Shown here one piece after another: positions 7,750-13,869 of a stretch of DNA of 64,000 nt. The notes under the pieces were generated by a model. That model did no database searches and was not told the DNA's origin. It was given only the letters and a program-made list of their open reading frames with translations. The DNA lies in IMG/VR virus record IMGVR_UViG_3300029955_000018, positions 1 to 64,000 of that record; one strand, written 5' to 3'. The first letter of the stretch is position 1. Every line of letters starts with the position of its first letter. The stretch comes from a virus. Made by a program: the position numbers and the translations under genes.

Positions 7750-9465
7750 CTAATTCACCGTATAATCGATGCTGCAATTCAGCGCGGTGGGAGTGCCGCT
7801 CATCGACGTAATGGTCAGGACCACCGGGGCATGCGCCGCAATCGCGCAGCTCGACGTCCCGCCGCACTGGCCTGACCCATTCGCGAAGGTTGAAGTATTG
7901 GCGCCCCCTGTTATCGCCGTGAGATCCGAGCCGAGCAAATGCGCGCCACTGTCCGTCCCGATGGTGCCCTCCGCGCGCTTGTCTAGATTGATCACCACAT
8001 TCGTCGATCCTTGGACCGCGCAAAACACGCGTGTCAAGACGATTGCCGTGGGCGGATTGATCACCAGGATCAACCCGGAATCCGATGTTGCCGGCGCCAG
8101 GTCCGTCATCGCCGCCGTCCGCGTCTGCAAGTGCGACAGGGTTGTCGCCTGCACCATCTGCCAGGAATTGCCGCTCGAATCCAAACATACCTGGGCACTC
8201 CCTCCCGATGTCGCGAAATAGCAGGACACAAAGCCGCTAGCCGGAGTACTGGGAGCGCTTCCCGTCGCCCCTGACACCAGCCACGGCCCACTAGCGGTAA
8301 CGCTCAGCATCTTCTTCCAGCTATTGGTTGCATAGCACCACCATTCGTCGCCGTTGGTCGAATCAATGTAGGTGTGAATAGCACTCGTAGTGGGTGCCGT
8401 GCAATTGGCGCTTGGCGCGCCCGCCGCCACGGCGTCCACTTGATACGCGCCGCCGCCAGAATTGAGTTGCTGTGTCCATGTTCCTGAGTTGCACTCCCAT
8501 ATATTCTGGCCTGCGATTGATCCTGTTACGAAACCTAGTTCGCCAACGGTGCAACCGCTTGGCAGTGAGCCACTCGTTGAAGCTACGACCATGGGCTTGC
8601 TGTGCATGAGTCCGCTCATGTCTATCGTTCCAGGATAGGCTCCTGTAAATGCCGTTCCTCCGTTGTAGTAGAAGTACGGATTTACGGCTATCCCATTACT
8701 CCCCGACCCCTGGATGACGTAATCGGCCGTCAACCCAGAGCCGGTGACGTTCCCTCCGGCGATTAGTGCGCACCCCGTGGCGTTTCCACTTGCCAGAATG
8801 CCCGTGGGCGCGTAGCCCGTGGAGCAGAGGCTGGGAGCCGCTGCCAGTGCGGTGGCCGTGCCCGCGTTGCCGGTGGTCGATTGGTTCAGCGTGGGAATAT
8901 CGGCTGGGACGATGGCGCGAAACGCCGGGCTTCCGCTCGATCCATTGGGAGCCGCCAGGAAGAAGTTGGCGGTCTGGGAGCCGAACGGCACCTGGATCTG
9001 GGCACAGCCAACTGCGTTTCCACTTGCCAGAATGCCCGTGGGCGCGTAGCCCGTGGAGCAGAGGCTGGGAGCCGCTGCCAGTGCGGTGGCCGTGCCCGCG
9101 TTGCCGGTGGTCGATTGATTGAGTGTGGGAAAGTTGCCGGCAACCGCTGGGACGGTGCTTCCCGGGGAATTGCGGTACGGAATGCTGTTCGATCCGGGAT
9201 CGCCCAGTCCAGTGGAGGCCGCTACCGCCGCGTAGCTGTAGCCGTTCCACATGCACCAGGCGAGCGCGGTGCCGATCCCGGAGCAGACGCCCGAGGCGGA
9301 AGCATCCACGAACAGGTAGGGGGTATTTACCTGGGGGCTTATCGGTGGACTCGCGAAATGGGCGACGAAGTTGATTTGCGTCGGATTGAACTGCGTCTGC
9401 GCCGGCAGACAAACCGACAGCGCAAGGCAGGCGAGTACCGTGAAGCAACGAGAGAAGGTCCGCAT
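7750..9465 (-). CDS. Tail-fibre-like protein with signal peptide and internal repeat
   Basis: A 571-residue protein; the start is the ATG at 9465, just past the stop of the upstream gene, giving a signal peptide ending in L-P-A-Q. The middle contains two near-identical 35-residue units (T-L-N-Q-S-T-T-G-N-A-G-T-A, then C-S-T-G-Y-A-P-T-G) about 78 residues apart. Repeats of this kind, with an N-Q-x-T-x-G-N-A core, are seen in trimeric phage tail fibres. The C-terminal 150 residues form a distinct Cys-containing beta domain that could be the tip. A Sec signal on a fibre is odd for a phage protein and is shared with several neighbours. Confidence 0.68.
   Translation of the reverse strand: MRTFSRCFTVLACLALSVCLPAQTQFNPTQINFVAHFASPPISPQVNTPYLFVDASASGVCSGIGTALAWCMWNGYSYAAVAASTGLGDPGSNSIPYRNSPGSTVPAVAGNFPTLNQSTTGNAGTATALAAAPSLCSTGYAPTGILASGNAVGCAQIQVPFGSQTANFFLAAPNGSSGSPAFRAIVPADIPTLNQSTTGNAGTATALAAAPSLCSTGYAPTGILASGNATGCALIAGGNVTGSGLTADYVIQGSGSNGIAVNPYFYYNGGTAFTGAYPGTIDMSGLMHSKPMVVASTSGSLPSGCTVGELGFVTGSIAGQNIWECNSGTWTQQLNSGGGAYQVDAVAAGAPSANCTAPTTSAIHTYIDSTNGDEWWCYATNSWKKMLSVTASGPWLVSGATGSAPSTPASGFVSCYFATSGGSAQVCLDSSGNSWQMVQATTLSHLQTRTAAMTDLAPATSDSGLILVINPPTAIVLTRVFCAVQGSTNVVINLDKRAEGTIGTDSGAHLLGSDLTAITGGANTSTFANGSGQCGGTSSCAIAAHAPVVLTITSMSGTPTALNCSIDYTVN
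8780..8883. repeat. Direct repeat copy 1 inside fibre-like gene
   Basis: About 104 bases that recur almost unchanged at 9014-9117, in the same reading frame, giving the duplicated 35-residue unit of the fibre-like protein. The high identity suggests recent duplication or gene conversion. Confidence 0.9.
9014..9117. repeat. Direct repeat copy 2 inside fibre-like gene
   Basis: Second copy of the 104-base unit at 8780-8883, offset by 234 bases (78 codons), so the frame is kept. Recombination between the copies would delete or add exactly one fibre module. Confidence 0.9.
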
Positions 9466-9467
9466 TC

Positions 9468-9704
9468 TTAGTGTCCGCTCCAATGGCCTGTTCCATCGCC
9501 GTGTTTCGACCGCGATTTCGCAGCGGGCTTCAGCACGTTCTCGTAATACCGTGCTTGTTCGCCGGGGAGTCCGGGCTTGTGGATGTCGGCCGCGGCTTCG
9601 GCCGAGACCGATTTTCCATGTCGTTGAGCGCGCGCGGTAAGGGCGCCTTTGCGCTTGACGTCGTGCTGGATGTCTGGCTGGTCGGGGCCGGGCTTATAAG
9701 ACAT
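9468..9704 (-). CDS. Small basic protein ending in G-H-W-S-G-H
   Basis: A 78-residue protein, rich in Lys, Arg, Gln and His and with no hydrophobic core. Its last residues (G-H-W-S-G-H) match the end of the next gene upstream (A-K-H-W-S-G-H), so the two share a C-terminal motif. Small, charged and in the virion gene cluster, it may be a minor capsid or DNA-binding protein. Not recognised. Confidence 0.6.
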   Translation of the reverse strand: MSYKPGPDQPDIQHDVKRKGALTARAQRHGKSVSAEAAADIHKPGLPGEQARYYENVLKPAAKSRSKHGDGTGHWSGH

Positions 9705-11967: not shown

Positions 11968-13869
11968 TTACGCCCCGCAGACGCGGACGCCCATGTCGTC
12001 GCGGACGCGCTTCACGCCGCCGAGGACGTCGAGACGAGTGATTTTCTCGTTGGTGCCGATCACGTAGCCGCGCAGCAGCCGGATGCCGATACCGGCCTTG
12101 GGGCTAGAGACCCATTCGGACCATTCCATGCCGCCGGGAAGTTCCTGCTTGACGATGGCCAGCGCGATGGCATCGCGGTGGAACGCCATCCCTTGAGCGC
12201 TGGTGACGTTGGCGATGGTCGAGAATGCGGTGTAGGGTAGGCCCCACACGAAGACTTGCGCGCCATCCGCGGGCAGCGCCGTCACGGTCTGGAACGGGCT
12301 GGTAGTGTCCGCGTTGATGGGCGGGGAGATATTGCACACCCCAACGCCCCCGGCAGTGGTGGTCATGGCCGAGGTCAGCACGAAGCTGCGCAAGGGTCCG
12401 ACGTTGCGGTAGCTGATGGGGTTCACCGCGTAAGAGCCGGCGAACTGCACGATGTCGCCCAGGTTGAGGCAGTTGACGATGGAGTCGTCCCAGCTCCGGG
12501 TCTGGATGGTCGCTCCGTTGTTGGTGATGCCGCCGCCGGCGATGTCCACCAATGGATTCGAGGCGATGGCTCCCGCGGTACCGAGAGCGCCCACCTGGAA
12601 GCGGGCGATGTTCACGTCCTCGTTAAACCGGAAGTTCAACGCGGTGCCCATCTTGCCCGTCAGGTACTGCTGGCTGACTTCCTTCTGGGGATTCAGCAGG
12701 TTGGCGTTGAAGCCGAGCACCGCCGCGGTCATATCCGGGGAGATGACCATGGCATTGAGGCTGACAATGCGGGGCACGCCATTGTTGGTCATCTGTACGC
12801 CGGCCTGGGCGTAAGTGGCCACGGAATTCGGCAGGACGCCGGGGGTTCCCACAAACGTGAAGAAGCCCGAGAAGACGTCGCACAGATCGCCGTCGATCAT
12901 GTTGGCGATGGTGGCCGAGGAGGGCTCGACGTACCGCTCGCCGAAGCGATCGATAGTCATCGTCAGGTCCTGGTCCGAGTTCTGCAGGTCCTGGCCCCAC
13001 AACTCGTTGATGACGATGGGGACCATTTGCTCCTGGATGCCTTCGGGTTTGATGCCATCGCCACGCCGGCCGCGGGTACGGACGGGCAAGCGGGCATTGA
13101 AGGTGTCGCTATTGTTGCGAGCGCAATCGCGAATCGCGCCCTTCTGAATCTTTGGATTCAGGCCAGACTATTTCATCGCCCCAGTGGGGCGCTCCACGCT
13201 TCGGGCCGCTTGGCCCTACTCCCGATCAAGGGATAGTCGTTGAGCCTTCCTGTTTCCAGGCTTGGTTGCTGATTGCCGTGGCTTTCGCTTTAGGTGTCCC
13301 AGCAGTTCATGGAGTTCTTCGAGGCAGGTTGCCCTGCCAAGGGGCTAATTTACTAACCCGATCTTTTCGTTCTTTACTGCGAATTTCTCATCGACCTATG
13401 TGTTCAGGCCTGGATCGCTACTTCCAGGCCCCGCCCGAACTTCGCTGGGTTCAGGCTGCTGCAACTTTCATTGCAGAGCAGACTATTTCATCACCCCGGT
13501 GGGGTGTGCTGCGCTTCCGGCCGCTTGGCCGTACTCCCTTGCGGGATAGTCGTTACGCCTTTCCTGGTGTTGGCACGCCGCCCGCAACGCAGAGTGCTTC
13601 GCCAACGGCATCCATACCAGGACTTGGTTCGGCGTTTCCGTGGGCATCGCTGATAGTCGCTTACTTGGTTAATCGTGTCAACCAAAAAGATGAACCAGTT
13701 TCAGCCTTTAGGGTTTCGCCGAGTTCACAGCATTTGCAATGGCGATTACTCGCCAAGGGAGCTAGATGTTGGCTAACTCGCGAGAGACCATCTTCATCAT
13801 GGTCAGGTCGTTTTCGAGCCGGATGAGCGAATCCTGTGCAATTACCACAGGGTTTAATAGTTCGTCCAT
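11968..13869 (-). CDS. P22-like major coat protein, gene split by two group I introns
   Basis: Exon 1 is 13869-13776: ATG with a strong GGAGG site, 31 codons (opening M-D-E-L-L-N-P-V-V-I and containing R-L-E-N-D-L) plus one base. A TAG follows in frame within 15 bases. The rest of the coat protein reads from about 13136 down to 11968 (D-T-F-N-A-R-L-P, then E-Q-M-V-P-I-V-I, D-R-F-G-E-R-Y-V-E-P). The first part has the usual N-terminal arm of P22-like coat proteins (L-x-R-L-E-N-x-L, M-V-x-R-E) and the second continues exactly where that family has G-D-T-x-x-x-R-x-P. Joining exon 1, a 3-base exon (13455-13453) and exon 3 from 13136 gives 421 codons in frame, the normal family length. Without splicing only a 35-residue peptide could be made from the true start. 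Confidence 0.85.
13137..13452 (-). ncRNA. Group I intron 2 in the coat gene
   Basis: About 316 bases without an ORF. Visible core on the minus strand: P1 (CCU^GAAC with GUUCGGG, splice after the U of a U-G pair); P4 arms UGCUG/CAGCA; P6 hairpin AGCCU/AGGCU; the R-type element ending CAACGACUAU (GACUAT at 13238-13233); hairpins UCCC/GGGA, GGGCC(AAGC)GGCCC and CGCCCC/GGGGCG; the S-type element AUGAAAUAGUC (13171-13166); and a P9 hairpin CUGAAUC(CAAA)GAUUCAG. The 3' end is placed at the G at 13137 because this restores the frame and allows a GC/GC P9.0. Boundaries are inferred, the helices are read directly. Confidence 0.82.
13456..13775 (-). ncRNA. Group I intron 1 in the coat gene
   Basis: About 320 bases without an ORF. 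P1 is a perfect hairpin GAGU^UAG with CUAGCUC, with the U-G wobble at the splice site. P4 arms are UCGGCG/CGCCGA, the R-type element is GUAACGACUAU (13551-13546), then come hairpins UCCC(GCAA)GGGA, CGGCC(AAGC)GGCCG and CACCCC/GGGGUG, the S-type element AUGAAAUAGUC (13486-13481) and P9 CUGCAAU(GAAA)GUUGCAG with a GNRA loop. P9.0 UG/CA places the last intron base at G 13456. Against intron 2, three stems differ by paired changes (for example GGGCC/GGCCC versus CGGCC/GGCCG), which is good evidence for RNA structure. Confidence 0.85.

Follow-up and report, generated by a model that had tools for sequence, protein, structure and literature searches.

A P22-like coat gene split by two ORF-less group I introns around a 13-codon exon, and recurrence of related introns in P22-like coat genes

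The window, a stretch of 64,000 nucleotides (positions 1–64,000) of the 71,897-base IMG/VR virus record IMGVR_UViG_3300029955_000018, carries on its minus strand, near a P22-like portal gene, a P22-like coat gene interrupted close to its start by two group I introns without open reading frames (ORFs) (Table 1). GGAGG precedes the coat ATG, and this ribosome site, the start codon and the 31 codons that follow are as described in the initial annotation. The same annotation had the coat frame resume at about 13136 after two abutting tandem introns, and both points need correction: exon 3 begins only at 13106, and of the 669 nt that separate it from exon 1, 39 nt (13394–13356) are a coding exon. 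The arrangement is neither a pair of tandem copies without an exon nor a twintron, and is correctly worded as two introns flanking a 13-codon exon. Elsewhere in the window, a 577-aa ORF (7750–9483, minus strand) contains a repeated module, LNQSTTGNAGTATALAAAPSLCSTGYAPTGILASGNA, seen twice (8700–9200).

Table 1. Coordinates of the split coat gene and its intron elements in the window, and intron sites mapped in P22-like coat genes (codon numbering of the window's coat gene).
Feature	Position	Strand	Description
Coat gene	13869–11968	−	P22-like, split
Exon 1	13776–13869	−	ATG at 13869, 31 codons + 1 nt, ends GAGU; reading frame, ribosome site; uninterrupted in L006
Intron 1	13395–13775	−	Group I, 381 nt, ORF-less, codon 32 phase 1, ends in G
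Intron 1 P1	13759–13779	−	GAGU/UAG (13779–13773; slash, splice site) with CUAGCUC (13765–13759); U.G at splice site; pairing read from sequence and Rfam match
Intron 1 P3	13507–13732	−	UGCUGUG (13732–13726) with CGCAGCA (13513–13507)
Intron 1 P7	13481–13552	−	GACUA with UAGUC; encloses P7.1, P7.2 (13531–13518) and P8 (13506–13492)
Intron 1 P9 hairpin	13459–13478	−	
Exon 2 (mini-exon)	13356–13394	−	39 nt, 13 codons; FDEKFAVKNEKIG with junction codons; ends GGGU
Intron 2	13107–13355	−	Group I, 249 nt, ORF-less, codon 45 phase 1, ends in G
Intron 2 P1	13342–13359	−	GGGU/UA (13359–13354; slash, splice site) with UUAGCCC (13348–13342); U.G at splice site; pairing read from sequence and Rfam match
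Intron 2 P3	13192–13314	−	CUCCAUG (13314–13308) with CGUGGAG (13198–13192)
Intron 2 P7	13166–13239	−	GACUA with UAGUC; encloses P7.1, P7.2 (13216–13203) and P8 (13191–13177)
Intron 2 P9 hairpin	13144–13162	−	
Exon 3	11968–13106	−	To coat stop codon; PF11651 match
Two-intron coat gene in L097	L097:6250–6770		Second P22-like coat gene with two introns, 264 and 240 nt
Site codon 7 phase 2			L097
Site codon 15 phase 1			L261
Site codon 17 phase 2			72 solver calls, among them Phenylobacterium and other alphaproteobacterial contigs
Site codon 27 phase 0			L081, L579, L548
Site codon 30 phase 0			L097
Site codon 32 phase 1			Intron 1; also L503, L536, L565, L512
Site codon 45 phase 1			Intron 2; no other coat intron found there
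Site codon 84/85			L015, diverged intron

Intron ends were set by the reading frame together with the group I rule, by which the exon ends in a U paired with G and the intron ends in G. Exons of 94, 39 and ~1140 nt then give a 423-aa spliced frame, with predicted junctions GAGU-UCGAUGAG (exon 1/exon 2) and GGGU-ACACC (exon 2/exon 3) and predicted junction peptides VSRE-FDEKFAVKNEKIG-YTFN, that is, VSRE-FDEK and EKIG-YTFNAR. The spliced protein matched the whole P22_CoatProtein family (PF11651; residues 8–422 against profile positions 10–423, E 6.5e-19), scoring 68.4 bits versus 57.6 bits for the listed ORF alone, and aligned unbroken over 96–100% of its length with the coats of the isolated phages Thalassomonas BA3, Vibrio 1.211 and Xanthomonas PBR31. 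Homologues keep the N-terminal arm without a gap, and do not begin at the later start codon that the initial annotation had weighed against its own reading. No second coat gene was found by homology in the virus record, and a coat protein search of genome contigs found no relative.

With the Rfam Intron_gpI model, both introns gave full-length matches on the minus strand (model positions 1–253 of 253) above the gathering score of 50, at 13785–13459 (55.1 bits) for intron 1 and 13365–13144 (64.4 bits) for intron 2, and neither the window nor the whole record gave a further group I match. The proposal of two group I introns in a P22-like coat gene is thereby upheld, as are the U.G pair at both 5′ splice sites (GAGU with GCUC in intron 1, GGGU with GCCC in intron 2), the placing of the R and S strands of P7, of the hairpins (P7.2 and P8) and of P9, and the compensating differences between the two copies; P3, for instance, is paired in both introns though its letters differ. 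Model R1 scored 122.6 bits for intron 1 and 107.4 bits for intron 2, and both catalytic cores keep every catalytic helix. By eye, intron 1 has a plausible P10 pairing (exon GAUG with CAUC); in intron 2 a P10 is unconvincing. Over the segment from R to P9 in 38 related cores, standard pairs fill 98.6% of paired cells versus 81.6% in shuffles, and double changes number 143 versus 34.8 in shuffles, far above slid structures; P7 and P7.1 are uninformative here because their letters were fixed by the search pattern. Both introns have the extra hairpins P7.1 and P7.2 that define group I subgroup IA, placed after P7 and before the 3′ P3 strand, and on this feature would fit the subgroup. P7.1 and P7.2 have been named as subgroup features (PMC3984707).

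An ORF check found neither a homing endonuclease nor any large ORF in either intron, in line with their earlier description as ORF-less, so that neither classes as a mobile intron on this count. A translated stretch of intron 1 (window positions 13507–13602, minus strand) resembles the C-terminal end of HNH proteins together with the RNA core; because this match covers mainly the core, an ORF remnant in intron 1 is possible and is not claimed.

The predicted junctions could be compared with an intron-less relative of the kind the initial annotation had suggested looking for. In L006, from another metagenome and 84% identical in protein, the coat gene reads VNREFDEKFAVKNEKIGYTFNARLPVR unbroken, which reproduces the predicted junctions exactly. 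Between this gene and that of the window, the mini-exon differs by eight synonymous and no nonsynonymous changes, and pN/pS is ~0.22 in exons 1 and 3, such that purifying selection acts on the exons on both sides of the introns. Since the frame is interrupted in the DNA, the gene could in principle be a decayed pseudogene or an assembly artefact whose introns no longer splice. We consider this hardly credible given the selection on the exons, the intact catalytic helices, and the lack of any other coat gene found by homology in the record. Moreover, contigs from other metagenomes agree: over 1400 nt, L003, L004, L005 and L007 are 100% identical to the window, which excludes a single assembly error. 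Identical as they are over these 1400 nt, the five contigs that have the intron pair represent one population and not independent lineages. Searches with the window and with L006 returned the same five contigs and no relative in which just one of the introns is present.

Exon 2 measures exactly 39 nt and lies between two phase 1 introns, so that a direct junction of exons 1 and 3 would leave out 13 codons, keep the frame and produce a second form of the coat; exon skipping of this sort is reported from the SIOphi terminase gene, likewise between group I introns (PMC11878797). The frame would, however, be kept by chance one time in three, and the skipped form would lack a conserved segment and scores −90.8 bits against the family profile versus 67.2 bits, so that we regard a skipped product as improbable here.

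Similar introns recur in this gene family. A first exact core pattern matched more than 120 viral and 118 genome stretches, among which P22-like coat genes turned up unasked. The complete list for a stricter exact pattern of the intron 1 core comprises 98 IMG/VR stretches, and in 82 of these the core adjoins a P22-like coat exon, always near the gene start. At 90% identity the 82 form 16 clusters, one of which is another fragment of the same type as the window, and the other 16 stretches include polymerases (identified by eye), a tail sheath, a head–tail connector, another capsid gene and contig ends. When coat loci were sampled instead, the N-terminus was gap-free and uninterrupted in 239 of 247, and an intron of the intron 1 type was present in four (L261, L335, L373, L482); the ranking of this sample favoured complete matches, so that split genes are undercounted, and one scan used a query from an intron-bearing locus. 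The intron type is thus rare per coat gene, yet its lineage, as judged from these sequences, favours the coat gene. In two other stretches intron cores are clustered, with two cores 249 nt apart at L056:980–1251 and three within 1.3 kb at L187:891–2221.

Insertion sites (Table 1) were mapped, L568 being left out, with a splice solver that used the family profile and translation checks; the calls at codon 17 include near-identical and a few truncated records. The exon 1 that the solver proposed for L133 and L582 was spurious, exon 1 being missing from those stretches. Of the eight mapped sites, seven fall among codons 1–45 of the 423 (binomial 1.1e-6, a value calculated once the sites were known). 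The intron 1 site is occupied in four distant coat genes, in three of which (L503, L536, L565) the intron has an HNH ORF; the HNH proteins tested, from L108 and L565, match the HNH endonuclease family phrog_2255 and matched no Pfam family. The outlying site belongs to L015 (1035–2550; MW202674.1), where a diverged 268-nt group I intron lies between two annotated coat CDSs. This call rests on anatomy and on exon continuity in the spliced frame, model R1 giving 13.2 bits (E 0.3), and Rfam at E up to 1 gave no match in L006, L008, L009 or L015. One might see in this distribution a preferred landing zone in the 5′ ~45 codons of P22-like coats, with one lineage moving among positions and intron position or splicing tuning coat synthesis, for example by delay or exon skipping, a scheme that we find doubtful.

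Intron 1 has its nearest relatives mostly among coat introns, matching such as that of L565 at up to 130 bits, whereas those of intron 2 are in L091 (151 bits), L045 and two SU10-type capsid genes (L110, L050). The introns in these SU10-type major capsid genes, near 4568 in L110 and near 12177 in L050, place group I introns in another capsid family. Introns 1 and 2 match each other with only 81.5 bits, less than either scores with introns of other phages, and their P9 extensions and 3′ ends are unlike. This speaks against a duplicate pair, in which one intron would have copied itself, by reverse splicing for instance, to the GGGU site close by and then diverged, although the intron 1 guide GCUC can also pair with GGGU through G.U, the cores are 77% identical over 113 nt, and both introns are in phase 1. 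Nor did an AU test reject a forced sister pairing of the two (p 0.264), and the core tree (59 cores, 118 columns) resolves too poorly to order moves between sites. On balance duplication seems unlikely, and separate arrival of the two introns, though not statistically required, is probably the better reading.

Taken together, the anatomy, the exon boundaries, the coding constraint on the mini-exon and the recurrence in coat genes, all read from sequence, lead us to favour, with a probability of roughly 0.93, a coat gene from which both introns splice out, intron 1 deriving from a coat-inserting lineage and intron 2 probably from a separate one. Group I introns splice by a two-step guanosine reaction. 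Each intron would accordingly fold in the transcript, bind guanosine and cut behind the U that its own U.G pair marks at the 5′ splice site, whereupon the exons would be joined and the intron would leave after its terminal G. Removal of 381 and 249 nt would turn the three exons into one 423-aa coat frame, and translation of unspliced RNA would end at in-frame stops just inside either intron (GAG UUA GCC AAC AUC UAG in intron 1, GGG UUA GUA AAU UAG in intron 2). The intron 1 lineage, usually with an HNH endonuclease frame, would have entered P22-like coats repeatedly within their first ~45 codons, presumably by endonuclease homing, with the ORF since lost from the window's copy, and intron 2 probably arrived from a relative in other phage genes.

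A gene that needs massive expression would thus tolerate two ribozymes. Because gene callers cut split coats in two, as with the two coat CDSs in MW202674.1, the N-terminal part of such coats is lost in viral surveys. Other P22-like coat introns, among them those of L108, L169, L081, L097, L503 and L565, resemble those of the window in gene, 5′ location and a core type with P7.1 and P7.2, but most carry an HNH ORF and stand alone.

Introns in capsid genes, phage genes with several introns, small exons between introns and exon skipping are already described. Landthaler and Shub are said to have reported in 1999 several group I introns in one gene of the staphylococcal phage Twort, with exon skipping possible, though that gene, like its phage, differs from ours. 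In mycobacteriophage LittleE, a probable group I intron in the major capsid gene is spliced efficiently in infection and, like those of the window, has a U before it and a G at its end, but it is a single ~819-bp intron, contains an endonuclease ORF and interrupts an HK97-like capsid gene (PMC3706429). Genes with two or three introns, with splicing shown experimentally, occur in Bastillevirinae, including phiNIT1 and SIOphi, and the ribonucleotide reductase gene of phiNIT1 likewise has a small exon between two introns; the genes concerned there encode ribonucleotide reductase, polymerase and terminase, and the mean intron is 802 bases (PMC11878797). In crAss-like phages the major capsid protein genes are also split by more than one group I intron, but these are larger phages of Bacteroidetes, their introns have intron-encoded-protein domains, and their capsid family is set apart by name (PMC7886860). 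For P22-like coats with group I introns we found no paper in the open-access literature, and their recurrent targeting appears to be undescribed. This recurrence, by which one intron family targets P22-like coat genes with a bias in position, is to us the more interesting part, and the empty, HNH-bearing and ORF-less sites form a natural series for testing how introns invade an essential gene and settle in it.
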